Positions 17,701 to 63,821 of a stretch of DNA of 64,000 nt are shown in pieces. The translations under genes were made by a program, and so were the position numbers. The notes beneath the pieces were generated by a model, which did not search any database, was not told where the DNA came from, and worked only from the letters and a program-made list of their open reading frames with translations. The DNA lies in NCBI GenBank assembly GCA_000310025.1, contig FN649736.1, positions 801,238 to 865,237 on the forward strand, read 5' to 3'. The DNA is from Ectocarpus siliculosus (lineage: Eukaryota; Sar; Phaeophyceae; Ectocarpales; Ectocarpaceae). The number at the start of each line of letters is the position of its first letter. Positions within the stretch are counted from its first letter, which is position 1.

Positions 17701-20634
17701 NNNNNNNNNNNNNNNNNGGCAGGCGGCGGGGGCGCCGTGGGCATCCCGATGGCCGAGGCGGTGCAGATGGAAGCGGGGGTGGCGGGGGCGGAGAGCGGGG
17801 GCGGGGCGACGGCGCGATTCCCGCCGCGGCGGATCGATGACATGGCGTTGCCTCAGGTGGGGGGGGGGGTCGGTGCGCCGCTGCTTTGTTTGACGGTTTT
17901 TTTGGTGCGGGAGTAACCTAGTTCTCGGCTTGGATAAAGATTGGTTTGTGTGTTTGTGTTTTTGAAATATGCACATAAATCACAGAAAGACGTCTACCCG
18001 TTCGAGATACTATACCACACTTGGAAGGGGATGTGTGGGGAAGCCTTTAAATTTTGTTCTCAGCGTTGTTCGAGTAGAAGTGCCGTGGTGGGTGGTGCTT
18101 TGTCCTTCGTGCGTTCGGGGTTCGTGCGGCTACCTGGTCCAAGCTGGCGGCCAGAGACTTCGGCAAGAAGCGTGATAGGACTCCGTGTCGGGTATAGCCA
18201 TGACTGCCTTTGGTATCTAGGATGAGGACATAGTCTACGTGTCGAGTTCTGTCTCTCCATCGACCCCTCCGATCTATCATAGTAGGTGACGTTGCCTCTT
18301 ATCAATGCGTTGCTGCTGTTCACTTTTCGCCTTTTTTGTTTTTTTGAATGCTTTGTTGGCTCGCGCCTCTGACGCCTTTCCTCTCTTCTATCCGTTTCTG
18401 CCACACATATCGCGCGAGGCGGTGCCGTGCGTCGTTGTTGCGTGTCATGAAGGAAGCACTTCTATCGCCTGCGCACGTCCTTCTCACCGCTCTAAGGCCT
18501 CTCTCCTCTCCTCTCCTCTGTCTTGTCTGTCCACTGCTGTGTCTTCACAGGGTTGGGAGGTAAGAGTCGACCAAGCGAGCGGAGAGCGCTACTTCGTCAA
18601 CCACAACAACAGAACGACCACATGGAACGGTGAGTGGCTTGTTGCTGTGACGTTGCAATGACGAATTGTAACCAATGATTGCTTCCCTTTTTTTGTTGTT
18701 GTGAACGTAGGGCTGCTGGTTGCTGTGATTTATCGTATTATGCAATAGACTAAATCCTCTTCCTTTGTTATTTTGTTTTAGGGTCATTTTGGGGACAGAG
18801 GCGTATTGTTTTTTCTTTGCCCAAACCTCTCTATTGATGCGTTCTGCCGTCAGGCCGTGGAACTGCCCGCGAAACCGCCCCAAAGAAACCGCGGGCTGAA
18901 GAATGCTTCCGTCATCAGTCACACTATAATAGTTGACATCGTTTTCAGCTCGAATGCTCCAAGGTTTTCGATTCTGGGAGACCCTGGTGCAGTAGGCTGC
19001 AGCATTCCTGCCGTCGGCCGTTACAGCAGTAGGTGACATCGTTTTTTTGTTTCGAGAATTGCAACCCGTTTGCCTTGTCCTACTAGCTCACGTGTGGTTG
19101 CCGCTTGCTGTGCGTTGGGGCGCTGTCCTTTCCCCTACTCCCTTTTCGCTCCACAGACCCGCGGGAGGCCGAGTGGAGACTGTACCAGCAGGACGTTTTC
19201 GGCAATAATGAGCAGGTACGACATATATATATATGGTATATATTTGTGTTGTCTTCATTTCAAGTCAGCGCTCACAGCACTAGTGCCGTTTACTCCAATC
19301 CCGTGGTATGGCCGTGTGTAGTGATTGATGTTCTTCCCGGATGGTATCGTGTGTGTAGGTAGACACCTCTCCTTCGGTGAGGAAAAGGGGGGCCTAGTGC
19401 TGAGGTCTCCCCGCTTGAGGAGATACCGCGTACCACGGAGCGTAGGAGGCACCTGGCCTGGACGGATTCACAGATGATGCCAAGAAGGCGAACAGCAGTG
19501 CATGCATTTTTCAAGAGCGTGGAAGTGGTTTTATTTCCGTCAATCAAGACAAAACCGTTAACACTCTCGTCAGTGGTGGTCTTACCGCCTTTTCCACAGC
19601 CAGACCCCGCCGGGGACCTCTTGCGGGTAACCCGCGAAACGCCGACCTCACCGCTTCGCGATGTATCCAGACTTGTCACCGCTCGCCTGGTCCTTTGTTT
19701 GCCGACCTGATATCGTCTCAGCAACACATGGGTGGCCGTTTCCCAAGGAGAGGGGGTCCGAGGCCACGGCTGATTCACCCAGGCGCTGGCTTCGCGAGGC
19801 CCTTTGGCTTCGGCGGGCTAACTGGCTTTGCTCTGGGTAGGGGGCTTCGAGGGTTTGGTGGTGAGTGGTTGGCATGGCAGTGCGCTTGTCTGGCTCGGGG
19901 GGGGGGGGGGGGGGGTTGGTGAGATGACAACGAGAAATTCGCGGCTTTTGTGTGCAAGGGCGCAAATGTCTTGCGGCAGCTGGAATTTGGTGCGAGAAGT
20001 GAACGGAAAAAGGTCTCTCAGATGCAACAGCAGCAGAACGAATAGGTGCAGAAGCTACTTGCTTTTTTCGGCCGAGGCTCGTGTCTTGTTAGCACTGTGC
20101 AGTAGCCCCAACGTCCGGCATCTAGTTTTGTGCAGCATTCGTAGCTGGTGCACCTGTTCTTTGGTCATTTTTCCAAAGTTTCTTGTTTTTTTAGCCTGAA
20201 GTTCTTAAATCCCAGGTTCTCCCGTGATGGATGGCGCGTTTTGCGCACCACGTTCTATTCTAACGGCCGTCGGGCACCAACAGCCAGCATCAACGACCTT
20301 GCACCTGTACATGTTGCCTGTCGCCTACGGCACCACACGGCACCATTCCGCACTGTACCGTTTTATACCGCACCGTGCCGTTCTGTACCGTGATGTACTG
20401 TACCGTACCGTATAATCCCGATCCGTATCGTGCCATCCCGGTGCCACCCCGATCCGTGCCGCAGGCGGCCGTCTTTTCCGACCGATGGGACCGGGCATGG
20501 GAGGCGGTTTCGGACGGATGGGCGGGGGAGGCTTTCGTGGCGGAGGAGGAGGCTTCCGTGGGGGCGGGGGCGGGGGAGGGGGCGGCGGGGGCGGGGGGAT
20601 GCGGTCCTCCTTCGGAGGCACAGCGAACCGTTAG
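11710..20634 (+). CDS. SARAF-like store-operated calcium entry regulator with WW domain and RGG-type tail
   Basis: Exons closing in phase: 11710-11808, 14892-15003, 15821-15987, 16780-16879, 17338-17856, 18551-18629, 19157-19215, 19722-19860 and 20465-20634 (TAG). The luminal part matches animal SARAF in order: KVLLAGVEALTF, LTTSRR..PIAQL, a GGxAGC-like CDGGGGSAGC, then PQWEC, VTVSCEGFDSPSDPYVLVGS and LTYSLD. A single membrane span follows (LNLGNVVFFVIFGSFAIRIL). In animals SARAF sits in the ER membrane and promotes slow inactivation of store-operated calcium entry through STIM. The cytosolic side has a Pro-rich stretch with a PPAY motif, then a WW domain (GWEVRVDQASGERYF ... TTTWNDPRE, split over two exons) and a Gly/Arg/Phe-rich C-terminus. 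Animal SARAF has a PPPY motif and Pro/Gly-rich tail, but no WW domain that I know of. A 100-N gap interrupts the fifth exon, and the exact start is uncertain. Total about 529 residues if the candidate first exon is right. Confidence 0.85.
13160..14233 (-). CDS. Antisense ORF with a CCCH-type zinc finger, nested in a SARAF intron
   Basis: The frame is open from an ATG at 14233 to a stop at 13160 without introns. It encodes a basic, helical first third, a Lys/Ala-rich linker and one zinc-finger-like motif C-x8-C-x4-C-x3-H (CRATWYGDPCRRTDCSYAH). A Gln/Pro run encoded by CAG repeats and an Arg-rich stretch follow. CCCH fingers usually bind RNA. The part after the Arg-rich stretch has no recognisable feature and may not be translated. 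It lies wholly inside the 3.1 kb intron 11809-14891 of the SARAF-like gene, on the opposite strand. Lack of introns in an intron-rich genome suggests a retrocopy or a repeat-derived ORF. I do not recognise a specific family. Confidence 0.4.
   Translation of the reverse strand: MRGSGPICIVQDLFTPGAAARQSARGAIKDGMNEGFHTLVRQAGEVQGAYPDGAPPPGTTGGVMQIPKFRRLKKLIERDDMSSLAERAGSWKTSTAAGGNLKRKAAGAPAKTPASKTKSKIMAVGAAPVWACRATWYGDPCRRTDCSYAHVNGSTYPYGAATAATAPHQTQQQQQQPQQQQQQPPQQPPPPAAAGGGRGRQGRRRRRERGARRERKKILTVRALDESDVLGLLLEFIACRLFSFNNQHQSTVRGYLFGRYYVLPQASPRLGAANVPLYARGSRKKDRQDSRYIRNKGAKSGYHLRGRSWLTVTAHEFQRGRTCDVARSGAIILLAMSSARAILVRERTGTPRVLFDA
16575..16765 (+). repeat. CT/TCTG microsatellite ending in a splice acceptor
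   Basis: About 190 bases are built of tctg, tctc and ggctgtc units. The last pure CT run lies directly before the acceptor at 16779, so it serves as the polypyrimidine tract for the transmembrane exon of the SARAF-like gene. Confidence 0.85.
17618..17717. other. Assembly gap, 100 N
   Basis: A conventional 100-N gap inside the Ala/Gly-rich part of the fifth SARAF-like exon, flanked by GCC/GGC repeats. The frame happens to run through, but the true length is unknown, so residue counts across it are not reliable. Confidence 0.98.
20328..20460 (+). repeat. Degenerate ACCGT-rich repeat before the last SARAF-like exon
   Basis: Imperfect iterations of taccgt, gcaccg and gccgttctgtaccg fill the last 130 bases of the final intron, up to the acceptor at 20464. 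Confidence 0.6.
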
Positions 20635-42929: not shown

Positions 42930-43180
42930 TCGTGCTCCTTCCATGCGTCTTCTATGGCCTTGACCCACTCCGTGGGCTACCTTCTCGGCTTTTTTGTTTG
43001 CCCACGTTGCCTCCCAAGCTATTCTCGGCAACCCATCCTTTCCCATACCTTTCATGAGGTACTGCCATTTTAGCTTCCTTGCGTGTCTTCCCGATCGTCG
43101 GGATTGGATCCCCAGTTCTGCCCTGACGGCTGCATTTACTTGTGCGCTTCGAGTATCCCAGGATGAGTTTTGGGGGGGGG
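42930..43180 (-). mobile_element. LINE-type reverse transcriptase tail fragment
   Basis: The minus strand reads AELGIQSRRSGRHARK, LKWQYLMKGMGKDGLPRIAW and EATWANKKAEKVAHGVGQGH, the basic end region found in non-LTR retrotransposons. It is cut by a poly-G run at 43169 and is followed by poor sequence and a gap, so the extent of the element is unknown. Confidence 0.55.
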
Positions 43181-43588
43181 GGGGGGGGGGCCCCCCCCCC
43201 CTTATAAAAAAAAAAAAATTTTTTTTTCCCCAAACAAAAACCGGAAAACGGGTTTTTTTTTTTTTTTTTCCCAAAATTTATTTTTGGGGGGGAAAAACTT
43301 TTTTTCCTTTCCCCCAACCCCCTTTTGTTGGGTGAATTTTTTCCCGGGAGGGAAAAAAAACCCCCCTTCCCCCAAAGGGGGGGCCCCCCCAACCAAAAAG
43401 GGCCGGTTTTTAAACCCGCCAAAAAAAAAAAAAAGGGGGGTTTTCCCGAGTCTTCCCCCCTTTTCTCCCCCCCCCCCCAAATTTTTTTCCCCAAACCCCG
43501 CCCCTTCCCCCCAATTGCTACAACCCGGGGAAAAAAAAAAAACATCCCCCTCCCCCCGGCCCCCCCCAAAGGGGGGGCCCCGGGGGGC
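43169..43588. other. Unreliable homopolymer block
   Basis: Nearly the whole stretch consists of runs of 3 to 20 identical bases following an 18-base G run. No natural sequence class looks like this; it resembles the failed end of a sequencing read after a homopolymer. All long open frames here are artefacts. Confidence 0.85.
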
Positions 43589-43688
43589 NNNNNNNNNNNN
43601 NNNNNNNNNNNNNNNNNNNNNNNNNNNNNNNNNNNNNNNNNNNNNNNNNNNNNNNNNNNNNNNNNNNNNNNNNNNNNNNNNNNNNNNN
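43589..43688. other. Assembly gap, 100 N
   Basis: A conventional fixed-length gap. Both sides carry the same roughly 80-base segment (near 43095-43170 and at 43689-43770), each ending in a long G run, so the gap lies within or between copies of one repeat. Confidence 0.98.
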
Positions 43689-43785
43689 CGTCGGGATTGG
43701 ATCCCCAGTTCTGCCCTGACGGGTGCATTTATTTGCGGAGCTTTGATTTTCCCAGGATGAGTTTTGGGGGGGGGGGGGGGGGGGC
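43689..43785 (-). repeat. Second copy of the LINE-derived segment plus G run
   Basis: The sequence from cgtcgggattggatccccag to gatgagttttgggg repeats the one at about 43092-43170 with several base differences. It may be a true second copy or the same locus assembled twice. Confidence 0.7.
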
Positions 43786-44443: not shown

Positions 44444-47400
44444 ATGCACCACGGAGTGACACCGATCGTTCGTTTTGCTCCCGGCTGCGCACACCAGGTA
44501 CAGAGCGAACCCTTGCGGGACACGCTGGCAGAAGAGGAGCGGGGGAATGGTCCCGGCGACGCCGCCGATGTGCCCCTCACATCAAAGGCGTCATCTTCTT
44601 CGAAGAAGGCACTTCTCCCGGAGGAGGGGCAGTTGCCAGAACCGCCGCCGGCGACTTCGGCCGCGGAAGCGACAGAGGGCGCGGTAGAAGACGGGGAAGG
44701 GAATTGGAGCGACGACGGTGAGGCTGGCGGGGGGGGAAACGGGGCCGGGAACGGGGTGCACAGCCTCACGGTAGGAGGGGAGAGCGTGGCGGCCGGTGCG
44801 GCCGAGACGGGGACCGACGCCGGGGTGGACGAAGGAGAACGTGCGGAGGAACGGGGAGAGCCCGGCCAGTCGCGTACGGAACCCGATGGAGGATCGGAAC
44901 ACCAAGAAGAAGGGGAACACGACGACCGCACGGAGGCAGCGGTTAGCAACCTGCTGGACGACATGTTCGCATCGGAAGAGGCCGCTGGCGCGGGGGCTGC
45001 CGCTGCTGCTGCCGCTGCTGCGAAGCTGGACGCGGGCACGAGCGACGAAGCGGTTAGCAACCTGCTCGACGACATGTTCGCATCGGAAGAGGCCGCTGGC
45101 GCGGGGGCTGCCACCGCTGCCGCTGCTGCGAAGCTGGACGCGGGTACGAGCGATGGGGGACGAAATCACGAAGAGAAGCAGCCGCAGACGACCGAGGGTG
45201 ACGTCGGAGACGCTGCCGACGACGCCCGCAGCGAGTCGACGGTGGGTGCCGGCGGCCAGTTAGAGGGGGGTACAGACGACTCTTCATGGGCAAGGGGCAA
45301 CGGTGAACGTGGGGGAGGGATCGATGGTGAACAGGACCAAGACGGCCTTGGCCCGGGGGCAGAGGATTGGGGCGGAGGAATGGCCGATGGTGCGGAAACC
45401 GGGTCAGCATCGTTCCGCGACGAGCTGTTCGGCGAGGGGCAACAACGGGCGGCCGCCGCTTCTGTGAGTAGCTCGTCCGCGCGGAGACCAGATGGAATTC
45501 CGAACGGGGGTGGGGAGGGCGGGGGAGGCGTCGGCTTGCATGAGCAGCAGCAGGCCGTGGTGGACAATACTGACCGCCAGGGTTTGTTGTCGCAGCCTGG
45601 TGGAGACGGAGACCAGCAAGAGCCGCAAGGAACAGTAGGTGTTTCCTCTTCAAGGTTGTTACAGGTGGAGGACAGACCAGACTCACAGCAGCAGCAGCAG
45701 CAGCAGCAGCAGCTGCTGCAGGCGGAGGCAAACGGTGTCCCAGAAGCGTTGGTGCAGCCCGGCGGAGAGGGAGATCAGCAGCAACAACCGGTGTGGGAGG
45801 AACAACAGCAGCAGCAAGAGCAGCAGGAACCGGAAGATGTGGAGCCCCCTGCATGGATGGTTGCGCTCGAGCCAGTAACGTTGGTGCAGCCTGGCGGGGA
45901 GGGAGATCAGCAGCAAGAACCGATGTCGGAAGAGCAACAGCCGCAGCAACAGCAGCAGCAGCAGCAGCAGCAGCGGGTTGATATTGCGCCCGAAGGGTTG
46001 TCGGAGCCCGGGTTACTGCCGGACCTACAGCAGCACCAGCAGGAGCAGGCGGAGGCAAACGGTGCCCCAGCAGCGTTGGTGCGACCCGGTGGGGAGGAAG
46101 ATGGACATCAACAACAGCCGGAGAAACCAGCAGATATTGCGCCTCAAGTGTTGTTACAGTCTGGGGAACTGCTAGACACGCAGCATCAGCAGGAGGCGGA
46201 GGAAAACCGTGTCCGAGAATCGTTGGTGCAGCCCGGCGGAAAGGGAGATCAGCATCAACAACCAGCGTGGGACGAGCAGCAGCAAGAGCAAGAGCAGCAG
46301 CAACCGGTTGGTGTTGTGCCTCAAGGGTTGTTGCAGCCTGGGGATTTGCCGGACCCAGAGCAGCGGCTTCTCCAGCCGCAGCAGGCAGAGGGGAACGGTG
46401 GCCCAGAACCGTTGGTACAGCCCGGCGGAGAGGGAGATCAGCAGCACCAACCTGTGCGGGAGGGGCAGCAGCAACAGAGGCCGGTAGATACTGCGCGTCA
46501 AAGCTTGTTGCAACCCGGGGACATATCAGACACACAGCGTCAGCATCAGGAGCAGGAGCAGCAGCAGCGGCAGCAGCAGCAGAAAGAGTCGGAGGAATCC
46601 CGAGAAGACCTGCCGCAAATGGAAGTGCGGGGTGACGAGGCGGGCGCCCCTGCAGTTGCTGCCGTGGTTGAGCCGCCTGTTGTCCGAGCTTCCAACGGGG
46701 CTGCTCCCGGTGGGATGGAGTGCGCAACGACCAAGCTAGGGGAAGGCGTCGACAGCATCACGAACATTGCGACGTGGAGGGACGTTCCCGGGTGAGCAGA
46801 GAGGGGTAGCGGGGTTTGAGTTCCTACGGTCGTTCGACGTTTCAATCGGGTGCCTCGGTTCGCTGCTGAGGTTGCTGATTGCATGGCACACACCATCGTG
46901 TAGTTTTTTTTTTTTGTGTGTCTCGCGGTTTTTACGAAATTGGGTTTTTGCTTAGGCTCTACTGATTGTGGTCTTTCTCACGCCTGGACTTTTCGGCCTA
47001 CTTGTAAACAACGCCGATTGTTGTGTGGACTTTTCTCGGAGGTGTTGACAGCGGGAAAACAATATGCATATTTTCGAGCGTCCTGTCCGTCCCCGGGTGA
47101 CGAGAATATACAGCCTGGCGACCCTCGAGGCCCGAGCATTATTTTCCAAGAACGGGAAAAGTCGGCTTTGATCCTGCCCTCTGCTCTCCGACACCAGAGG
47201 CCCTAATTATTTTGTCGTTGATGGCCTTCTGACTTGTGCTGTATACAAGCCGTCGCGTTACGCGGTACAAGCAGGTCGCCACGCGTGCGTAGCCCGTTCG
47301 CAAGTCGCTAAATAGTCTGTGCGGTGCTATCACCGTCTTCGTTTTTTCCCTTGTTTTTTTCCCGTGCACTATCAGTTGCTTTGTTCCGGTGCGCAATACG

Positions 47401-50400
47401 TTGCGTACACAGCGCATGACAAATCACGACGTCGTGCGTTTTTAGTAATCGATCGTATTTTCCCTTTTGGTCCAAAGTACGATACGTTGTTTGTTGCGGT
47501 GGGACTCCACTCGTAGCCCGTTACATGTCGCGACTTTGTGCGGTACATCTGTCAACCCGATCGCGTTTTTTTTTTTTCGCCGCGGACGATCCGTCGGATT
47601 GTGTTGGTGCCTTCAGAGACGCAGCGTACCGCCACCCCCTTGCGGAGGAGAACGCGAGCAAGTACGTTACCCTGCAGAAGGACCTCGGAGGTTTCAACAA
47701 CATCCGCCTCAGCTTGGAGTGCGCCGTTGCGATTGCCGCCGCCACCGGTCGAACGCTCGTGATCCCTCCACCCTTCCAAATCTGGAACATGAAGGGCACG
47801 GCCAAGAAGGTGCGCGGTAGAGTGCTGCATGCCGTTCGTAACACCCGTGGATTTTGTTCAGGAGGAGACGGCGGCGTCATGCCCTCGTGGCGTGTTCATA
47901 CCCGGCCATGCTGGCGGAAGGGGCCGGATAGATGTCGGAATGTTCGGCGTGCCTGCCTGTCCCTTTCAGAAACGCCGGCAAGTAGTGCTTGGTGCTTCAC
48001 CATCAAGACGCTTCGAAGGCACCAGCCAAACACATTTTTTCACCGGCACTCTTTTGCACGATGTTATTTTGCTTGATGTCTTCCGGCTTGGTAAACGCAC
48101 GTTGCGTTTTCGTCTGTGGCGTTCTGGGTTTTCGTATAGATATCTGTCTCTTGCTGTTCTTCTGCTGCAGGAGGTCGACCTACGTGAACTTTTTTCTTTC
48201 GACAAGCTCCGTGCGTCGGGCAGAGTTAACGTCATCACCACGGCCGAGTTCCTGGAGCGGGAAGCGGTTACGGGTAACCTCGGCGTACAGCCTGACAAGA
48301 GCGTGATGCTCCTAGACGTAAAGGTATGCTGGTTGGTTCTTGGTAGGCGAAGGCTTGCCCCTTTTGTTCAAAATGTTTCGCTCGTTGTCCTGGAAATTGA
48401 TTTTGTCATTTTCGTTCCCGCTTGATGCCAGCGGTACGTCCGTTCAGTATGAGCCAGAAGGAGCGCTGTTCAATCACAGCGCTTGTCGATGTTCTGGAGG
48501 TACGCCGTGTTTTCGCCTTCTCCGAATAGAATCTTGGTAGACGCACGAGACGGAGGAGTAGAAGAGGAATGGGAGCACAGCAGTGTTGCAACTGGCGGTG
48601 GTGTCCCCGCGATCGGCAAAGGGGGGGGGGTCTTGAGGACGAACCCTTGATGCTGCTCGCAGCAGCGCGTTGGGCTAATCATCGTTCGAGTCGAACTGTT
48701 GGGCATGAAGCATCCTCCGTGGGTGGTGTTCGCCGAGACGACGCATCGATCGACGCAACCTAAGAGTCTGTGAAAGAAGTCACTATCTACGGCTGTGCGC
48801 CTTAGTTGTGAAGTGCTTTTTTTTTTGCCAGACTCGTGTGTATCACCCGAATGACGGCGTCGCATCATAAACAATCAGCCAAGGTAAGGGCGGGGGCTCC
48901 CTGACGGCATCCTCCCGTTCTCCTCTTGCACGTGGAAGACGTCTGCCCGGCCGATGCAAAAGAAGCGGGCCCGCAACAAAGAAAACTTTGGGATTTCCGT
49001 CAAGGAATATAGATGGAAGCTTGGCATTCCCGATGAGAAGACGAGGCTCAAGTTTTCCATGTTGAACGGGGACATTTGTGCTTGAAAAGCACGGAATCCT
49101 ACCATGCACCGTAACCACCAAACTAGAAATTGATCTCCAACCCGACTTGATCACGGGCGGCCCGTGCTCTAGGTTGGTGTGGCGGCATCAATCAAGGTTT
49201 CACTCTGGTGTTTGCAACTCTAGTTCTTTCCTCTCTTTCACTTACTCTCCTTCCAATTTCTCTTTCTCTCTCTCCCACTCACTCACTCACTCACTCACTC
49301 ACTCACATCCCACTACTATTCCTCAAGCCCCCTGCCATTCACTCACATCAACACTCTTTTATTTTCTCCTTGCCCTTCATCTCGGTTCCGCAGGCCGTCG
49401 AAGCATACATGGAGCAGGTGGCGAGCCAGTACGACGGGGGCCTCCCGGAGCTGAGCGTAGAAAGGGCGGCCCTGGTCATGCCTCGGCGGATAGACGGGAA
49501 AGTTGACCTCGAGGTGTGTAAATAGTATATGTCTTGACTGGCAAGGATTCGTGTTTTGGTTTCAGGGGTGCGGTGGTCGCACGGAAGAAGCCCTCTCACC
49601 GTTGTGCTGAGTTGAATCTCGTCCATTTCCTGCAGGCACCCGCCAATGGCAACTTTGCAGTTTTTTCTTTTTTTTTTTGGTGCGGTTGGTGTGCGGAAGT
49701 CGGGTCTGTAGACGAAGCGATGTTGAGTGGTACGCTGAGCAAGAAGCTTGTCATTGCGTTGTTTCAGTTGAGCTTGGGGGACGAAAGCTGCCCGACGTTT
49801 TCGTCAAGAATCGCGCCCGAAGTGACCGCCGAGGTGCTCGGCTTTGCGGAAGTTGATGTTGGGTCAGAGCTGTGTAGACTCTCCGCGACCACTGTTCGAT
49901 TTCTTGAATACGGCCGCTATTGTTGTCCCAATTTCCAACGACTTCTTCCAAACCATGGGACTTGCAGCACTCTCCTCGCTGCATCGATCAGAGGCACGCG
50001 ACTTGGGACCACCGCGTTTCTCACCGCGATGTCCCCCCCGGATTGTGCTGTTTCCCGCGTGTGTTAGGACGAGAGGTACGGGTTCGCCAAGAAATGGATC
50101 TATGGGAGAGAACTGCTCGAGTATCAAGGACAGCCATGGGAAGAGGCGAAGGTAAGAAGTCAGAATTTGACTGCTGGGCGGCCGGGCCGAAGGTCGCCGC
50201 GCTCCTTGGAAAGGAAAACGATCGTGGCCGCGTTGTGCAGCCATGAGACGCGCCTGTAGGCTATAGCCCTTGCGTTCCTTTGTTGGCGCACCACCCCGCT
50301 GCACACACTGGCTGTAGTTGTCACTTTTCAACTTTTAACAAACCAAATACCCAGACTCTGCTCTCCACAGCTGCACCTGCATGCATAGAGGGACATGCCG

Positions 50401-53400
50401 ACTGTTCCCCGCAGCGCCTGGTCATGCACGTTATTGGGTGTGTTGTGCAGACGTACGTACGGCAGTCTCTATTGGAGTGGCCCAATGTGGGGGGCTGGTA
50501 AATGTGCGGTAGGAGAATACCCTTGTGGCCGCAACCTGAGGACACACTCATGAGAATGCCGCCTTTTGTGACGGGCTCAGTTTTGGTCCTTGTAAGGGCA
50601 GCCTCGCGGCCAACCCAATCATTTATCATTATGCCGCATCTGTTTTTTGGGGGCAACGGGGGGGCAGCCTACCCCCGACGGAAAGCGGTATCGGTGTTAA
50701 TGTTCTTGGGGCTTGGCTTGTGTGTGGCAACGAAAACAGCAACGAGTCTAGACAGGCCCAGCACGTAGACTGACGTTGAGGCATCCCGAGAGTACGGCCG
50801 AAACTCTTCTTCCGGGGGTTGGGGGTTAACACGACCGCAACACCACAGTCAGTGACGATTCGTTGGTCGCGATGTTGTTGCTGACAAACTTGGCCTGGCA
50901 GGTTATCCACTGGCGAGCGAAGGAATCGCGTCTGTTGGCACCGTTCTACGCGTTCGTGCTGCACGCGGACGAGGCGTCCGACCAGTACCACAAGCGCCTC
51001 CTTCGGGACCTGATGCACTACCCCGAGGAGGTGTACTGCAAGGCTAGTCAGGTGAAACCAGGGAAGCGGCTTTCTTCAGTGGCACCCGGCCTAGCTCCTC
51101 GAGAGGTGGTATGCAGCAAGGCCAGTCAACGAATGAAGCGGTTTCACCCAAAGCATTGTACTCTCACTGTAATGTGACAGAAGGAAGCAGCTTCTTCTCA
51201 GATGTATCTTGTCTAACCCCTGACGAGGCATGCACGAAGTATTCAGCAAGGCCAGCCATAGAATGAAGCAGTTGCATCAAAGCATCGGACTCTCAAGAGA
51301 TGACTGCAATGCTAATAGTGAGGTGAAACAGTTGTGCATTTTCTTGATCGCATCTAGTCTTACCCGTAAGAGGTAAACTTCTGCCACGCTAGTCAGGTTA
51401 GAAAGTTAACCAGCGCCAGTGTGGCGTCTAGCCAGAGGGGTACCGCAAAGCCTGTCAGCTGTACAGAATAAAGCCAGTTTCGGCAGGGCATCTAAAATCT
51501 AGAGGGCTGCAAGACCAGTTCGGCGAAGATTAGAGCAGGTTCAACGAAGTACAAATCAGCCTGGAGTACGTACCTGCTATATCCGAGTCCCTTGCCGAAT
51601 GGTGGTACGTCGTACGGCTACGAGCAGCCCGTCCGGGAGAAGATGAACTTCACTGCTATGGTGAAAAAATGGAAAAAAAAAAAAGAAAAGAAAAATATAT
51701 GGCACCACGAATATTTGCTGTGAAGAGGTGCCCCTCCATGGCGTTTATCATGGTATCATGCGGTGACCGTACAGGAAAACGGACACTGACGCGCTTCTCC
51801 TAGGAAAGACAAACTCAAGGGCAACACTGCAATGCACACGGCCACTTGCTAGTTAGTTTTTGGGGCGATGGCTGGTTTTGGTGACGGGCTTCCTGCTTGT
51901 CGTCGCTCATGCAGAATGTTGATGCCGTGTGCCGTTCCTCGCCGCCTCGCTGTGTACTCCTGCCCGTCTTGACGGGTGTGCAGATTATCTCGCTTCTCAG
52001 ACAGGAAGACCCGTCCGGCGAATTCAGCACGTTCCACGTCAGAAGGTGTGCGAGATCTGTGTCCGGGTTTGCCTGTTTCTAGTCCAGGTTGCCTGGGGGT
52101 GTGCTTCATGTAAGATACATGGTGCCATGCTGCAATGGGGCTCTGGCTGTTGTCTGTTTGGTGTTGTTTTTCATTCGGTTCAGCTCGGTTCGAAACCGGC
52201 TCGTTTCGTATTCGGTTCGGCTCGATGAAGCTTTTGTTCGGGTGGATGCTGTCACAGGGGCCAATAGTGAGAAAAGTGTAGCGAAGAAACAGCATCGTTG
52301 CTCTACGCCTGGATATTCACGCCACAATCGAGAGCTTGAAAGGCTTGTTTGTGCGTGGTGACCGCAGCACCACCATGCTCGGAATCGATTCAATCGAGCT
52401 CTCTCTTCTTCGCAGACGCGGGCCCGAATGGCCTGGCCCTTTGTATGGTTCGGTGCGGCGCATCTATTTTTAAGGTGGAAACCCTGTCTTTTTTTCAGTG
52501 AATGCAAGGAGTAGCGTATATGCGGATGGAGGCAGCATGACGTTCACAGTTCTGTTGCAGCGGAACCGGTACAATGAGCATTCCAGCTGTTTTCGTGGAA
52601 CGGATATTCCATGGTATCATTTTTTTCAGCTGTTCAGCGAAACCGGTGAAACCAACCTTCGAGCAGGTTATCGGAAACCGGCACAAGATGTCCAGCTGCT
52701 AATGCGAAACCGAGACATTTGAACGCCTTAGCTCAATCATCGCTCGAAAGAAATTGCCGCGCCCCGGCTCGATCGCGTCCCCATCCGTATTGCGCCGCCC
52801 GTTTCGACGGTATCGCGCGACGAGCGAAACCGGGACATCGAATGTGATGGCGCAACCATCGCTCGAAAACAATTGCTGCGCTCTGGCTCGGTCGCGTCCT
52901 CGTCCGTATTGCGCCGCCCGTTTCGACCGTATCGTGCGAAAAGGAACGACTTCATTGGAGTTTACAAGATGGTCAACCTCCCCTTAGCCGACGTTATCGC
53001 AAATAGCCTGGTGAGAAAAAGGCCCAACCTCGCCACTGCCGAGAGTGGCTCCAGCTTACCGTGTGGCCCATGAAGTGTGACACATGCTTCTTTTTTCGTT
53101 CCCCGTCTTTGCCTTTCTGTTCTCGTCCTCGTCGTTTTTCTTTTCCTTGCTGTCTCCGTTGCTGTTTTCGCGCGTTTTTTTTTTCCTTTTGTTTTCGTCT
53201 TGTTTTTTTGTCATGCGTTTTTCTCCGCTATCTGAAACCGAAGGAATGACTTTGGCAAAGCTTACAAGAGTGTCATGATCGATCCGGCTGATGTGATCGC
53301 GAATAGTTTGGTAAGTTGAGTACCGGGCGAATGGGCCTAATAGTTCCGTCTTCCCTCGACCGGCCAACGGCGTGATTAGTGTGGTATCTGGCGTCCACAT

Positions 53401-54974
53401 CGTGAAAAATCTCTCGGTAGTGTCAGCCATTTTCCCCCCGGACGGAAAGCTTTGTCATCCTGCCTATTTCGGGAAGGTGCTGCCTCCCGAAACGGCAGTA
53501 CCTTTTGGCACGTTGCGTCGTTGGATATGCGGTTTGTCCGTCGTATTTTTGTGCTAGTCTCGCTCAGCGCCACTCCGGTGCTGTCGTGAGCTTTTAAATT
53601 CCTCCAGTGTACTAGAGCTGTGACCTAGAAACGCGAATGTGCACAGTTTTTTTCCCACGGTGGATATATGGAAGAACGCGCGAAGCCATGCCGGCTCCCG
53701 CCTACACCTCCTGCCGTGTCCCTGTCTCCCTCGTGTACGTGTGTGTGTGTTTTTTTGGCAGGACCACCTCAACGATAACGAAGTGGTGTACGTTGCGACC
53801 GACGAGAAGGATCTGTCGGTGTTCGAGCCCTTCAGGAAGAACGTTCGTGTGAAGTTCTTGTCTGACTACTACGAGCGAGCGGGCGTGTCCGAGCTCAACC
53901 CCAACCTCATCGGCATGCTGGAGCAGGTGCGGTGTCGTTCCTGGGTGATTGTTGCCTGATGTGTAAACTCGACACTAGTCAACTTGTAATATGTAGTCCC
54001 GTCTTGTGCTTGGACTTGCCGGAAGACGTAGTTGTCCTGCTTGAATGACGCCGCCTTGCATGTTTTGCGAGGTGTCCATGTTCCCACGCGTTCCGTGCGG
54101 TTCATGGCGCCAAGACGTTCAACGAGTGTACCAGTTATACAGCCCAGCCCGCCCGCTTCGTTGTTCTGGCGTCCGCTGTTGTGCCCTGCTCGTGACTGGC
54201 GTCGCGGTTTCCGTGCCCCACTGCTGCGTCCCCGCCCCAGGTCGTCGCGAGCCACGGGCGGACTTTCACGGGGTGTTGGCTGTCCACCTTTACGGCGTAC
54301 ATTCTTCGGCTCAGGGGACACCTACAGATGCCCAGAAAGTGAGAACGCTCGCAAGTCGTGGCGAGGGAGAGATGCTTCGTGTCTTCTTCGTATTGTTCGC
54401 ACTTTTTTTTGTTTTTTTTCATGCCGGGAACGCCCCTCGTTTTTTTTTTCATGCTTTTCTTCGTGGGGTGTCGTTGCTGTTCCAGCCAGACCTTGAACTG
54501 TAATAATTACAGTAGCGTGGACTTCTTTCCGCGTCCAGGGCCTACAAAAGCTTGAGGATTGTTTTTGCTATGTGTCCCTTGATTCCCAACCAGCATGCAT
54601 TTGTATGCCGCCCTCGAAGTAGTTGCCCTTTGTACGAGGTAGAGGCCATGTGCTTCACAAAGGCATGCAATTGCAAAGGACTTGTTATTTCCCGCCGGTC
54701 TCGCAGCGTACCTTATCTTTTTCTTTTTTTTTTTGGCAGCGTCCTGTTGGAGTTTGTGACTCACGTCCTCCGATTTTTGTTGTTGGTTTCGTTTCGTGGT
54801 GCCTGTGCCCTTGTCCCTCGTCGTCTGGTCAGGTCCAACTGGTCCTACTACAATCCTAGGAAAGAGTACAACCAAGCTTACAAGCTGCCCGAGAACCCTC
54901 TGTGGATGACCGAGTGGCCCTTCGGGTGGGAACGCATCGACGAGACTGGCGTTCCTGACCCTATGGCCCCCTGA
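44444..54974 (+). CDS. GDP-fucose O-fucosyltransferase-like protein with Gln-rich repeat stem
   Basis: Exons: 44444-46791, 47617-47809, 48171-48323, 48458-48499 (tentative), 49394-49513, 50068-50151, 50902-51051, 51984-52045, then either 52944-53010 or 53244-53310, and 53762-53926, 54241-54338 and 54833-54974 (TGA). Phases close, giving about 1207 residues. The catalytic part has O-fucosyltransferase landmarks in order: DLGGFNNIRLSLECAVAIAA with TGRTLVIPP, VIHWRAKESRLLAPFYAFVL, HYPEEVYCKA, FHVRR-NDF (the HxRRxD-type GDP-fucose motif), DNEVVYVATDEK, LNPNLIGMLEQVVASHGRTF and WSYYNPRKEYNQAYK. Such enzymes act in the ER/Golgi lumen on proteins or glycans. The first 780 residues are acidic, then Gln-rich with repeated LVQPGGEGDQ units. 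A membrane anchor is not visible, so an upstream exon is likely; a possible acceptor lies inside the first exon near 44498. Acceptor sugar or protein cannot be inferred. Confidence 0.85.
44937..45150 (+). repeat. Coding tandem duplication (EAVSNLLDDMFASEEAAGAG unit)
   Basis: Two units of about 110 bases encode the same peptide ending in an Ala run and KLDAGTSD. They differ by a few Ala codons, as expected from slippage. They lie in the N-terminal stem region of the O-fucosyltransferase-like protein. Confidence 0.9.
45540..46620 (+). repeat. Coding Gln-rich repeat array
   Basis: CAG/CAA runs separate six or more imperfect copies of a 40 to 60 residue unit with LVQPGGEGDQ, a Gln/Glu block, and LLQPGDLPD-like segments. 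The frame is kept throughout, so the array is translated. It should be length-polymorphic. Confidence 0.88.
49280..49310 (+). repeat. CACT microsatellite
   Basis: About seven cact units in a pyrimidine-rich intron stretch before the exon 49394-49513. Confidence 0.9.
51022..51520 (+). repeat. Degenerate repeats derived from an exon end
   Basis: The 3' end of the exon 50902-51051, its donor and the next bases recur as decayed copies downstream. Segments like gaggtggtatgcagcaaggc, gaggcatgcacgaagtattc, gaggtaaacttctgccacgc and gaggggtaccgcaaagcctg are each preceded by a ctag or ctaa-rich linker. Spacing is roughly 65 to 145 bases. Confidence 0.55.
51984..52045 (+). other. Constitutive exon carrying the HVRR half of the sugar-nucleotide motif
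   Basis: This 62-base exon of the O-fucosyltransferase-like gene encodes IISLLRQEDPSGEFSTFHVR and ends in phase 2 inside the next Arg codon. Either copy of the downstream alternative exon completes that codon with its first G, and supplies NDF. Confidence 0.8.
52704..52941 (+). repeat. Tandem duplication, 2 x 119 bases, ending at exon copy A
   Basis: Units 52704-52822 and 52823-52941 both contain gcgaaaccg, atcgctcgaaa and attgcgccgcccgtttcgac, with about 15 to 20 percent divergence. The second unit runs into the acceptor of exon copy A at 52944. Confidence 0.8.
52944..53010 (+). other. Alternative exon copy A of the O-fucosyltransferase-like gene
   Basis: 67 bases, entered in phase 2 and left in phase 0. 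It encodes NDFIGVYKMVNLPLADVIAN plus SL. The acceptor (GCGAAAAG) has a weak polypyrimidine tract; the donor is CTG/GTGAGA. It corresponds to the segment just after the conserved RRxD of the family. Confidence 0.75.
53244..53310 (+). other. Alternative exon copy B of the O-fucosyltransferase-like gene
   Basis: 67 bases, exactly 300 bases after copy A, with the same phases. It encodes NDFGKAYKSVMIDPADVIAN plus SL, identical to copy A at 14 of 22 residues. Its acceptor follows a long T-rich tract, so it looks stronger than that of copy A; the donor is TTG/GTAAGT. Confidence 0.75.
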
Positions 54975-57885
54975 TGATAGAGACGCGGAGTGACTTGAAG
55001 TAGAAACCCTCCGAAGGCATGCTTGGGGCATGATGCTTTGCACGCGCGTGCACGCCCCCCCACGCGCGCGTGTGTGTGTTGGCTGACTTGTGTTGTCCTG
55101 TCTCTTGTGAGCGTTGTCACTTCCGAACCTGTTGGTGTCAGCGGGTGTAGTACTGTAGTAGTGACCCTAGGCGTTTTGCCCCTTCTGTAGATGTTGTCCC
55201 TGTTAATACTGTGAAATGTCGACTTTGTTATGTGGTAAATCGCAGCTCTTCTTTAGCGTTTGGCGATACGTTGTCGCCGTTCCGCACGGCGACCAAAAGC
55301 GCTCGGGGTTTATTTAGAGATGCATGTTGTCGCGATGCCTCGATTAAAGGAGAGCGCTCTACATATACAAGGAAATTCTCGTGTAACGTGTCGAGGGTGC
55401 CCGATTGTTGTCGGGGAGAAGGAGCGGTGCCCCGCCTCGAGGGCGATCGGGGGTCCGTACTATGATACAACATCAAACGGACCGAAGCAGGGAGTGTTGC
55501 ACCCGAGCGTCCGTGGTCGGTCGCAACCGCGTTGTGTGTGCGGCATGCGCAGCGCAGAGTTTCATGTGTGGTACATCTGCGAGGCCCCTCCTCTAGTTGG
55601 GGTGGGAATGACGTACGTGTTCGGCATTAGGCGGCACTCTGCTGCTGCACACGCGCGGAATGATCCTGGAGCGCGCAGCCTGGATTATCCCATGTTGGAT
55701 TGCTGACAATGACGGAACTAGGGCATCCTCGTCAGAGAAAAGCTGCCCACGGCGTGAAGTTGCAATGCGTGGCCTTGAGGACAACCACTTCTTTAAGCAC
55801 GAGCTCGATTTGCGAGCTACAATACCGGAACAAATCTTGTGCACCTTCTTGAGAGGCGTGGTTGTTTTTTTCCCCGCTATTCCGCTAGAGTAGTTGTGGA
55901 GTCATGGCACGGCTACCGAAGTCACGTAGTTCAGGATGGGTCGATCTCTCTCTCTTTGAACACCGTTGGACGGAACTCTAGTTTGTAGTGGTGCCAGCAC
56001 ATCTTGCTGTAGCTCTTTAGTCTGTTGAAGTACAATAGTGGCCACAGACCCGAGTTGGCTGAGACGTGTTCGCGATGCGCATGGTCGGGGCGTGAATAGC
56101 TTCCGACAGATGCTGCCTGCTTACCAGGGGCGATCTTTTAGTGCATTAGCGGAGCCATTGGTTCAACAAGGCAAGGAGATCATTTGCGTAATATCTTGTA
56201 GGGCTATAGTTGCCTCGAGTCACTGCGTTGTTCCATGAACTCCTATTTGTAAGTTTTTATTTCTTTTGTTTATTCTCGTTACGGCGTCGCCGCTTTTGGA
56301 ATTTTGGTATCGAGAGCACTGCATTAGTCCTCCACTCATTTTGATTGTGCTGCTTGTCTGCGTTGTGTTTTCGGAGGTTGTCGCGAATACGAGTTAATTC
56401 GATTGTTCAATAATTGCATGCTGGTTCCCGTTATTCTTGTGAGGGTTTGGTCGCATCGATGGCTGAACTTCCCGGCTTGTGGTCGTTTCAAACCCCACGG
56501 ATGCGAAGGTACGACGGAGGTTCGGCGGTCATGGGCTGAACGGCACGAATTACGTAGAGACGGTTGACGCGGCTGGAAGCTCGTGTATAACGCCTTTATG
56601 ATGTTTGACAATGCCCATGGGGTGCTCGTTGTCGTCCATGGACGCTCAAGGGTGTACAGACGTACGTTCCTACAGTAGTTCACAACAACAGAACAGAAGC
56701 ATGTAGATGCCAATACAGAAAACTCACAATGAAGTGCTACCGTCGCCAAGAAGCGCACGGCACGTTACAGACAAGGAAACTGTTTTTCCCTAACGCGTGG
56801 GGGACTACAGTTAGCGCCCGCACTTGCAGAACTTCATGCCCAGTCCACTATCAAGAACATATGTTTTCTGTGGCAACAACGAACGACAACGCGTTGGGTT
56901 TATGTCCCGCGAACGGCTTTGCCTCTCTGCGCCAGGCAGAGAAACGCCGAATACGTACTTTCATATTATGATGATTGTAGACTCTCGTATTTTTCGTTCC
57001 ATAGTCTTAACTTTGGTGATGAGGGTTCCAACCGCCTTCCTTGCTCTCTACTCATAAGCGGAACGTGTGCCTGGTGTGAAGAGGACACAATATGGACCCA
57101 CAGTCGTGTACTCTACAGTGCTGTGGAATTTCAGCCGAATGAATATTTCGACTTGCGGTTTACTTCGTGTACTTACTGCTTGGGAGTTGAAGGAAAAGTG
57201 AATCACAGTACAATATTGCAAGTGATACCACGCAAGGAGCAGCGGACCTACTCCTCCCTTCCCTTCAGTTAGTCTGTCCCTCCATGTCGTTCGGTGTCGC
57301 CTGGCGTTTGGACTCCCGTCCTTCACTCGGCGCACCATATACGTAGGTCGCGTTGCTCCTCTATTTCCCGCGGAGTTTTCGTTTGTAGCCGGTTCACGGC
57401 GGGGGTGATACGTTTTCATTTTTGGAGAATCCTCTGCATGGTTCTCATTTTGTGCCTGATGGTGCGCTTTCAAGTTGATATGAGCCGCTCATCTGCTTCT
57501 TTGTACTTTCTCTTACCATGACTTGTCGGCCTTAGTGAGCACCGTGGCGCTGTGGCCTCTCTGCCACAGTGATTCGACCGGCAGCGTCGCTCACATCGGA
57601 ATGCTGTCTCTGCGTAACGGCTCTCAAATAGGCGACCAGGCAGAGATTGAAATAGCAAGATCCTGCTCAAAAACACCGCACCTAGGCCAATGCGGAAACA
57701 TGAAGACATGTGATACCTGCGTGCACAAAGCATCAGACACGACATCAACATGGATCCGTTCACAGCCTCCCTGCTTCGTTACTTCCCCTGACATTACCTC
57801 CAACCCCGCCAAATGCTCTTGTCTTGTGAAGAAAAGCGCTCATTCCGCTGTAATTCCGCCAAATCACCGTACTGAACCTAATTCC

Positions 57886-59793: not shown

Positions 59794-60960
59794 GTTGCAG
59801 GCACAATCTCGCGTTGGAACTCACTGGACCCACACGCACGTTCATATAATAGACCACCGCCTGAATATGCATTGTGCCGCTGAGGTGCTGCAAGGCAGTG
59901 CAAGGCAGGCGTTCAGATTCGGTTGTTGCCGACATTGTTGTTCGAGAAGTCAAAAGGAACGATCAAGACAGGAAGACTAAGGGCGAACCGGTCGAGAGGG
60001 CCGAGACAGCGCGCATCGTCGCACACTTCTGGCGCAACATGTCGCGAGACGTACACCATAGGTCAACATCGGCCTCTTGATATACGGTCGGGCAAAGATG
60101 GGGATCCGGAAGAACACGTCGATAGAAATGAATTTAAGTTGGAGCAACTGAAGCTTTCAGCTTAAAAACAAGGAGTAAAGTGAGATCCACTTCTTTGGAG
60201 AAGTATGATTGTTTCTCCCAAATTCGTCCAGGGGGTTGAAAACCCCACCGGCCAACAGCAGTACAACAACTGAGATTCATTTGTCGGAAATCACGCTAAA
60301 ATAGACCGTAGGAACCGTGAGAATCATTCCTCCGAAATTCATTGAGGGAGGGGGGCAGAAAGCCCCCACCGACAAACTCGATATTCACATATACCGACAA
60401 TATTAGGACTCAGGAGAAGGCGAGAGAATCATTTTTTTCCGAGATGGTCCCAGACATCAGAAGAAGAGTGACACCAACGACGGCGAAGTGGTAGCGACGA
60501 GGAAATGCATGGTCGCATACGTTTTGTGTCTCCCGGTGCGCGCGGACGGGGGTGGACTTCGGCGAGGGGGCATGGCTCTCGATGTGCCTATTCAAGGCAT
60601 CGTCAAGAAATCGCGAAACGTGCGCCTTAGGTCGACATCGGAGTGCGGACTTGAATCTTCCGAACGGAGCGATGAGGACACCAAGACGGCAAACAAGTGA
60701 AGAAGAGAGCGAAACAGCGCGCATGGTCGCACATGGCCCCACACTTGTGACGTGCGCTACTGCACGCGGAAGTCAATCACACTTGGTAACTGGTCATGAT
60801 TTGGGATGCCCTATCGACGCATACTCGCGATTACGCCAGCCGTGCTCCATGGGTCTACATCGGCTTTTGAGACACTGTCGGGTAAGCGTGGGGAAATCGG
60901 TGTAAGAGCGTCTCAAAAATGAAGTTAGGTCGGAGAGACTGACGCTTACAGCTTCAGAAT
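59580..60960. repeat. Composite repeat block with direct and inverted copies
   Basis: The segment around 59600-59670 recurs in reverse complement at about 60655-60735 (agcgcgcatggtcgcacatg side). Segments near 59690-59760, 59983-60170 and 60715-60957 share direct similarity (aacagcgcgcat, tacatcgg or caacatcgg, gtcgggtaagcgtgggga or close). It resembles a degraded foldback or MITE-type DNA element family. Confidence 0.55.
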
Positions 60961-62136: not shown

Positions 62137-63821
62137 TTAATCTGCCTTCTCTTCCTCTTCATCGGCATTCGTCGTCTGCTCCTTCTCCTTTTTCAATTCT
62201 GCCCTCAATTGAAAGAAGAGGACAACCGTCTCGACCACGATCGCCATGACCATGAGCGCGTGAACGGCCACGAGAACGATCTCGAACACCCTTTGGCTCG
62301 CGACGTGTTCGTCGGAAACGTTTACCTTCAGCAGGAGCCCGAGAAACATGCTCGAGAAGACAACAACGTGCCCCATGCGATTGATCCAACGATCCCACCC
62401 GGATTTGTACGGGTTCAGGGCCTCAGAAACGACGACAAAAGCGAAGGCGATCATTAATGTCACCGCGATCTGCGCCGCCGTGTTGGGATAGATGAACACG
62501 ACGACGCCTGCTAGGAGGACCCGCCGGCCGCACTCGATCACCTCGTAGTAGAACGCCCACCGGTTGTAAGGCTCCCACAGGTCGGCGATCGAGGTGACAC
62601 GCGGAGGGTCTCGCCGTTTGGACGTGTCCTGCTTCAACAAGTCGCGATCCCTGAAGAGAAGGCCGGCGTAGAGAGCCGGGATTCCCACCGTGTATACGAG
62701 GATCATGAAGACGGCGTACACCTGGAAGCCCTTGTGCTTGGAGGAGTCGCACTCGATGCGGTAGTCTGACCTGAGGTAGATCTTGCGGTCGGCTAGTTCC
62801 TCGCAAGCGAAGGATCTGAACAGGATCGAACTTACGCTCGAGTAGACGAAGAACGTAAGCAAGAGCACCATCGACGCATGCTTGTGCTGAACGGCTCCGA
62901 GTGTGTCTGGCTTGCGACGGTAGAGACTCCAGGCCCTAAAGTAGGTGCATGCCAAAAACAGCAAGGCCGCGATAGGGCTGATCGTGGAAACCAGCAGTCT
63001 GTCGTGGAAGTCCATGTCAATGGTGCAGCTGACAGATAGAGCCCAGCCGAGGTCGAAGTTGAACATGTCAAGGACTCCAAGGAAGTCTTCGTACACGTCG
63101 GGGTAGGTGACGTTCGCGATAGACGTGAACTGTTGCAGAAGGTCAGGCGGACAAAACGTGATTGGAAGACGGGTTAACATGAGTCCATGGCCCGTGGATG
63201 GGTCGTTGTTCCAAATACAACGCGGTGCTCGAGTCACGTCGCACGAGGCTGTCGTATGTCTTCGAACTGATGCGTGAGTTTGTACGTTCAGGGAAGAGTG
63301 TAGAACGATAGTTTCGCCGCCGAAGTACAACGAGATCATTCTTTCAGAAAGATAGTTGTCCCGCAAAAGTGACCGCTGTTATGTATCATAGGTGCGGTGC
63401 AACCCTTCCATAGTTAGTTGTACAAAGTAGGCGGAAAGATGCCAGGTGACCTCTTCCCACTTTGTGGTAGAGCCACGGATACCAAGTGCAGACTTGACGT
63501 GCGCAACACGCCCATGGGGAGCGGAAACCCGCCGGTACGTCGGAAATGCTCCGTGTCATACCTGCGTCAAGATTTGCCAGGCCGCGATGACAATCTTCAC
63601 AGACTGGAGAGGTATGTACCGCGTCACCCGCTCGATCCATCCACATCCCGTGCCCATGCCGTCCTCCCCCGACGTGACGTACGAGTATATGGCAGCGAGG
63701 ACGATCGTGGTCCCGACAGCGAGGACGACCAATATCACGATCCCCCCCGTGTTTTTCTCGGGGCACTTGCTGCACACAAAGCCCAGTTGCTCGGAATAAC
63801 CGTTGCTGCAAACACTGCAGT
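62137..63821 (-). CDS. Cys-rich, multi-pass TRP-like membrane protein, C-terminal part
   Basis: Exons 63821-63562 and 63129-62137 (TAA) join in phase 0; the acceptor at 63822 shows that the gene continues beyond the right edge. The first exon carries the end of a Cys-rich ectodomain (DCSVCSNGYSEQ, FVCSKCPEKNTGG) and a membrane span (IVILVVLAVGTTIVLAAIYS). The second has a conserved extracellular-type segment (ANVTYPDVYEDFLGVLDMFN) and about seven further spans, with YYEVIECGRRVLLAGVVVFI between two of them, and an acidic/basic tail. Such GCC2/GCC3-like Cys repeats fused to a TRP-like multi-span domain are common in stramenopile and algal genomes. Ion-channel or sensor roles are guesses from topology. 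I cannot assign a substrate or a gene name. Confidence 0.8.

Follow-up and report, generated by a model that had tools for sequence, protein, structure and literature searches.

In the 64-kb window (the whole stretch of DNA analysed here), a gene of the O-fucosyltransferase family PF10250 appears to carry two tandem exons that are mutually exclusive, with the exclusivity enforced by the reading frame and with the choice between them swapping a loop on the acceptor side of the active site; judging from the sequence, we give this reading a probability of about two in three. The alternative exons, here called exon A (52944..53010, + strand) and exon B (53244..53310, + strand), are each 67 nt long and encode (R)NDFIGVYKMVNLPLADVIANSL and (R)NDFGKAYKSVMIDPADVIANSL, respectively. 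Either exon, but only one of them, completes the catalytic domain. In the mechanism that we propose, the two exons would compete through their AAG acceptors for the shared donor of the preceding exon (E7), products containing both or neither would be removed by nonsense-mediated decay (NMD, assumed to operate in the host), and the swap of the loop would act on acceptor choice or turnover, not on the sugar donor. A more far-reaching version, in which a multicellular alga uses regulated splicing to obtain two swappable active-site loops, and hence two acceptor specificities that vary with life stage or tissue, the frame of the 67-nt exons serving as a fail-safe, is put forward only tentatively.

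The gene was rebuilt from GT-AG boundaries and reading frame, with all exons on the + strand. Its start is provisional. The first modelled exon (E1, 44498..46791) is long, of low complexity and rich in Q and E; it has a CAG acceptor and an open frame, ends in phase 2, joins E2 in frame, and gave no Pfam match at an E-value of 0.01. E1 also carries an internal near-repeat (VSNLLDDMFASEEAAGAG...AAKLDAGTSD, present twice), upstream of the catalytic domain. The O-FucT domain starts in E2 (47617..47809), where PF10250 is matched from model position 1 and where the GDP-fucose motif GGFNN is found. E2 is followed by E3 (48171..48323), E4 (49394..49513), E5 (50068..50151), E6 (50902..51051) and E7 (51984..52045), a 62-nt exon that ends with HVR and the AG of a second Arg, at a phase 2 donor. 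Downstream of the exon pair lie E9 (53762..53926), with a phase 0 acceptor, E10 (54241..54338), with an LSTF motif, and E11 (54833..54974), with the stop codon. We scored the product of E2-E11 together with the last codons of E1 (416 residues), and found that it matches positions 1-324 of the 326 positions of the PF10250 (O-FucT) model with either exon in place, at 83.7 bits for A and 83.0 bits for B, where the curated cutoff is 31.5 bits. An earlier reading, made from the sequence only, had called the gene O-fucosyltransferase-like, and this end-to-end match with either exon bears it out: by its sequence, the gene encodes a GDP-fucose O-fucosyltransferase-type enzyme (PF10250).

When aligned without gaps, exons A and B are identical at 42/67 nucleotides and at 14 of their 22 residues, and their starts are spaced 300 nt apart; the coordinates, equal lengths, spacing and residue identity given by the sequence-only reading were all recovered when recomputed. 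On the + strand of the window, the best match of A is B and vice versa, and the next-best 67-nt matches reach 32/67 for B and 34/67 for A. The minus strand, which was scanned with exon B only, gave a maximum of 32/67. A chance repeat as the origin of the likeness was rejected on this difference in identities. For the other nine exons of E2-E11, no comparable second copy was found on the + strand within positions 47000-56000, the best z values being 3.7-4.6, versus 7.2 for A and B. We also rejected an assembly duplicate or an allele, because 25 of the 67 bases differ and because the intron flanks, compared over 60 bases on each side, ungapped and in the same register, are alike only at chance level (18/60 and 17/60). 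A candidate third copy, namely a 27-nt match at 54858 in the last exon with a common run of 11 bases found by eye, was judged to be due to chance. By these sequence comparisons, A and B are a tandem-duplicated pair of homologous exons.

The reading frame allows for only one of them at a time. E7 ends in phase 2 and E9 starts in phase 0, and both boundaries are common to A and B, so that inclusion of a single exon, whether A or B, completes HVRRNDF... and joins E9 in frame. Since the join of E7 to A ends on a codon boundary, adding B after A yields CTG GAA TGA, which is an immediate stop. When E7 is joined straight to E9, a TGA is encountered at 53850-53852 (nucleotides 89-91 of E9). These stops are located 324 nt (both exons) and 172 nt (neither exon) before the last modelled exon junction, positions that would expose them to decay of the exon-junction type, should the organism possess it. 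In other words, because of the asymmetric length of 67 nt, a product stays intact only with a single copy, and among the predicted spliced products the frame was indeed intact with one and only one copy. The phases on both sides, the GAA TGA on double inclusion and the stop on skipping, as described in the sequence-only reading, were thereby reproduced from the sequence.

Both exons are bordered by AG and GT dinucleotides, with A having an aaaag acceptor and a gtgaga donor, and B having a cgaag acceptor preceded by a pyrimidine run, and a gtaagt donor. The last three acceptor bases are AAG in both, compared to CAG or TAG in all ten other modelled acceptors. Pyrimidine content at positions -25 to -5 is 71% for B versus 57% for A, and the longest pyrimidine run upstream is 9 nt for B versus 4 for A. 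The acceptor of A is somewhat weaker than that of B, and both are unlike the other acceptors of the gene in their last three bases. The earlier claim that the acceptor of B is much stronger holds with regard to the run and the pyrimidine content, but "much" is an overstatement, given that both end in AAG and that the tracts of E2 and E6 are as poor as that of A (57% and 52% pyrimidine). On a crude consensus count the two donors score 7/9 each, with the intronic part of B's donor being closer to the consensus than that of A. Among the four acceptors tested for a YTNAY branch-site match, none was found within 60 nt of A, B or the constitutive E9, and one was found at E7. The intron before A contains two copies of a 90-nt direct repeat (52731-52820 and 52850-52939, + strand), with a likeness of 87% and a spacing of 119 nt. 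As 4 nt separate the end of the right copy from exon A, most of the acceptor region of A lies within this copy. As far as can be judged from the sequence, this intronic duplication looks younger than the duplication of the exon.

These features of the acceptor of A, namely its lower pyrimidine content, its shorter run, its AAG and the repeat pair that extends to 4 nt from it, all fit an alternative in which B is constitutive and A is a relic, left by an exon duplication long ago and now unused or spliced at the level of noise. We consider this unlikely, given that A has kept its frame, both splice dinucleotides and its fit to the family, and given the pattern of codon changes between the two copies. 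Of the 22 codons, 8 are replaced, 8 are silently different and 6 are identical. All 8 replacements fall within one stretch of 11 codons, and the other 11 codons contain 8 silent changes and no replacements; clustering of the replacements within 11 codons had a chance of 0.005 in 200,000 random placements, a post hoc calculation. The last 8 codons (ADVIANSL) contain 6 silent changes and no replacements.

In a pairwise codon likelihood analysis of the 22 codons with kappa set to 2, a single shared omega of 0.106 gave an lnL of -153.5, compared to -156.9 when copy A was neutral and -158.8 when both copies were neutral, and the order of the models was the same at a kappa of 1.5 and 3. The omega is rough, because only 22 codons were available and the fitted divergence ran up against its upper limit of 9. 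Neutrality of A was worse by 3.4 log units at a kappa of 2, by 3.8 at 1.5 and by 2.9 at 3, and by 6.6 log units when only the last 8 codons were considered (kappa 2), which argues against a relic; when mis-framed codon frequencies were used, it fitted nearly as well (lnL -164.6 vs -163.7). For the middle 11 codons, omega was 1.9, which is indistinguishable from 1, and no constraint was seen there. The comparison of synonymous and nonsynonymous change that the sequence-only reading had proposed thus prefers, for A versus B, a shared omega of about 0.11 over neutral copies.

The time that A could have spent without selection was gauged with simulations that started from the sequence of B, with 0.1 indels per substitution, and in which a copy was considered intact when it retained its frame and splice dinucleotides and contained no stop. 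An unselected copy was intact with a probability of 0.29, 0.09 and 0.03 at 0.1, 0.2 and 0.3 substitutions per site, respectively, and with a probability of 0.003 at 0.5 and 0.0001 at 0.8 substitutions per site. Long neutrality of A is therefore unlikely, but a recent loss of A, or a short neutral spell, may have occurred, being compatible with both the codon test and the simulation. Overall, the sequence data favour protein-level selection on A as well as B during the greater part of their history, and A and B are probably both functional at the protein level. The same data bear on another alternative, in which A is a regulatory poison exon whose addition to a B transcript leads to a stop and to decay, so that its protein sequence is irrelevant. 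The immediate TGA on double inclusion and the weak acceptor, which suits a regulated cassette, agree with such a role. For a poison exon, however, the retention of 14/22 residues alongside 8 silent changes, a family score equal to that of B and the phase of an exact substitute would all be unneeded, and we find it very improbable.

With regard to how mutually exclusive use of A and B would be achieved, crowding of a donor and a branch point blocks splicing only in introns much shorter than the 233-nt intron between A and B (53011..53243, + strand, with GT and AG ends), and splice-site crowding was therefore rejected. An incompatible U2/U12 pair is unsupported as well, as the donors gtgtgc, gtgaga and gtaagt do not resemble U12-type donors when compared by eye to the U12 consensus. 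Using the single sequence, we found that the region 53000-53260 folds no better than its shuffles (z 0.29) and that 52700-53000 folds worse (z 1.91), and duplexes as good as the best intron-intron ones were obtained in 20, 34 and 9 of 40 shuffles. An 11-nt pair with 91% complementarity joins 53013-53023, at the start of the A-B intron, with 53215-53225, in the pyrimidine tract of B; it is one of 7 pairs listed without a shuffle control. That competing RNA structures (docking and selector sites, like those of exon clusters in insects) set the exclusivity, with the frame as a backstop, draws on this pair, but the pair lies outside the predicted fold and the single-sequence folds and duplexes are within the range of shuffles, which makes this the least probable of the alternatives. 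As steric, U12-type and RNA-structure exclusion are all without support, competition between the AAG acceptors, together with the frame, remains as the candidate mechanism.

Relatives were sought in prokaryotic, viral and plasmid collections, and were found on phage-like and bacterial contigs. A first scan of genome contigs gave no relatives among 68 candidates; the other scans, whose contigs partly overlap, gave 4 loci among 19 candidates, 6 loci, 3 among 56 candidates (a profile scan) and 24 among 81 candidates, and one phage record came in addition. The alignment started from 28 loci (L011-L038), 19 of which were kept after dropping near-duplicates, and was completed with one POFUT2 chain fragment to a total of 20 sequences. 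L001-L010 were left out because their contigs were already present, with the exception of L004/L010, the protein of which is identical to that of L005. The H, both R, the D and the F of HxRRxDF are invariant in 20/20 aligned relatives, an invariance that is partly built in, because the patterns used to select candidates contained HxRRNDF or YxATDE. The dozen columns that follow the motif, among which the A/B replacements are found, have an entropy of 1.7-3.4 bits in the relatives. Variability is similar in the columns of the helix (36-45), at 1.5-3.1 bits, and it is therefore the comparison of A and B that singles out the loop, rather than the variability of the family. A profile of the 20 relatives, excluding A and B, scored the B product at 94.6 bits and the A product at 91.3 bits.

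An AlphaFold2 model was made of a Bryobacterales relative (L013, a bacterial protein with 33% identity) from 21 sequences, and reached a mean pLDDT of 81.7 and a pTM of 0.83, with a mean pLDDT of 61 for the loop block 211-220; an earlier model, made from 5 phage-like sequences, had a mean pLDDT of 36 and was not used. In the L013 model, the strand 199-203 carries the His of the motif, no strand or helix is assigned to residues 210-219, and 220-230 form a helix. The A/B replacements correspond to residues 210, 211, 212, 215, 217, 218, 219 and 220. On this model, all but the last of them occupy the loop that follows the GDP-fucose motif, and the last one opens the next helix. The GDP-fucose motif is the same in both isoforms, as is the part modelled as the subsequent helix, and the isoforms differ between the two. 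Among the best 50 of 659 Foldseek matches, the solved structures are POFUT1, POFUT2, plant FUT1, NodZ and FUT8, with a query-normalised TM of 0.42-0.58 and an rmsd of 6.4 to 11.6. By sequence, the best relatives of the window protein with a solved structure are the POFUT2 chains 8ay1 and 5foe, which are remote (E 0.0008). In two of the ORFs on viral contigs (L001 4398-6965 and L031 2365-4980), the O-FucT domain is fused to carbamoyltransferase domains (PF02543 and PF16861), and in cyanophage S-SCSM1 (L011) an O-FucT and a carbamoyltransferase are encoded by nearby genes. A further viral-contig ORF (L022 1630-5247, 1206 aa) fuses the O-FucT domain to a PF11397 GlcNAc-type glycosyltransferase (253 bits).

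For the comparison with known fucosyltransferases, we take PF10250, to which the window protein belongs, to be the Pfam family of the POFUTs (POFUT1 and POFUT2, GT65 and GT68), with GT68 presumably being the family number of POFUT2. FUT8 and other GT23 enzymes have an H-x-R-R-x-D motif, and alternative splicing of the loop of FUT8 is not known to us. According to the accessible part of the source, the beta6-alpha8 loop of FUT8 (365-378) begins at the Arg of the motif, shows partial disorder when no ligand is bound and changes when substrates are present; GDP and the acceptor are recognised by Arg365, Lys369 and Glu373, the last of which is the catalytic base (PMC8433944). As in the window protein, H-x-R-R-x-D is followed directly by a loop and a helix in FUT8 and GT23, as far as the available text describes it (PMC8433944; for brown algal GT23, PMC11468063). 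The window protein differs from FUT8 in belonging to PF10250, and in that, by ungapped counting, Lys369 and Glu373 are found after the motif in neither isoform, their places being taken by F and Y in both. In POFUT1, the segment just after the motif (Ser243-Leu284) keeps GDP-fucose covered and prevents TSR from binding, and Asp244 is in contact with the fucose (PMC6096484, available part); in CePOFUT1, Trp245 stacks on the motif Arg, and the changes D242A and D244A cost little activity (PMC3180450, available part). POFUT2 has Glu54/Glu52 in a GEGFN motif, and the catalytic role of this Glu is described in the same text (PMC6096484). It aligns with a Gly in the window protein, which has GGFNN at that place, in a register inferred from a weak alignment of the phage relative L001 (domain score -0.5).

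Given F and Y at the FUT8 sites and Gly at the POFUT2 Glu, we therefore claim the same place but not the same chemistry: the catalytic analogy of the swapped loop to the loop of FUT8 is positional only. The suggestion in the sequence-only reading that the exon pair may switch donor or acceptor specificity can be narrowed down accordingly. A switch of the donor is unlikely, because the residues of the GDP-fucose motif are identical in both isoforms. A switch on the acceptor side is likelier, because the position of the swapped loop matches that of the FUT8 loop in which GDP induces order and which binds the acceptor and provides the base, and that of the POFUT1 segment that excludes TSR, as far as the accessible parts of these papers describe them (PMC8433944; PMC6096484). 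In these related enzymes the loop becomes ordered with GDP and touches the acceptor, and its exchange would therefore be expected to change acceptor choice or turnover.

Mutually exclusive tandem exons with a frame rule are a well-known kind of system. Exons Ab and 3 of human U2AF1 are likewise tandem, homologous and 67 nt long, have acceptors of unequal strength, and lead to stop codons and NMD when both or neither are included; seven residues are changed in that pair and eight in A/B (PMC5224494, accessible part). For U2AF1, splicing, decay and tissue ratios were measured, whereas the use of A/B is predicted from DNA, and U2AF1 is a splicing factor in which the seven variants of the UHM domain are spread over three elements (PMC5224494, accessible part). 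The same portion of the text proposes that indels in units of branch point and pyrimidine tract have aided the specialisation of such exon pairs (PMC5224494). In brown algae, which would be the same lineage if the window comes from one of them, ROCO genes have tandem homologous short LRR exons whose alternative splicing diversifies a binding surface, but these exons are 72 bp long, have phase 2 and accumulate into arrays, whereas A/B are asymmetric 67-nt exons with an exclusive choice (PMC11378527, available part); the word "mutually" does not occur in the main text of that paper. Among the open-access matches listed (including PMC7784034, PMC12702839 and PMC6368402, in their available parts), no mutually exclusive exon pair is described in a brown alga or in a fucosyltransferase. 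Which genes of brown algae synthesise sulfated fucans is not yet known according to the accessible part of PMC11468063, the main text of which does not contain the terms GT65 and GT68. If two isoforms are made that differ only in the loop by the GDP-fucose site, they would constitute a natural experiment on the loop and acceptor choice, and the frame would offer a readout for regulated splicing. If the more far-reaching version with two acceptor specificities is true, glycan diversity would be encoded by splicing at a catalytic loop, without gene duplication.

Several other features were observed in the window, in which GC content ranges from 0.50 to 0.61 per 4 kb and N gaps are present, features compatible with the brown alga presumed in the sequence-only reading. 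In the intron after E6, a pair of degenerate repeats (51109-51151 and 51239-51281, 81%) resembles, by eye, the 3' end of E6 (GCAAGGCTAGTCAG), as if the end of the exon had been copied into the intron. On the minus strand, 60149-60283 resembles the protein of E2-E3 without the intron (tblastn E 6e-4; 0.035 with other settings), a match that beats the best of 30 shuffled queries (0.093), and this sequence is perhaps a paralogue or a processed fragment. A 34-base text is present at both 43096 and 43689, flanking homopolymer-rich sequence and a gap of 100 N (43589-43688), and this duplicated text (43096-43722) is likely an assembly fault. An open frame on the minus strand (62137-63378) gives a sub-threshold match to a TRP channel (PF06011, 26.8 bits, with a cutoff of 28.5), and a WW domain (PF00397, 37.7 bits) is found at 18290-18661.
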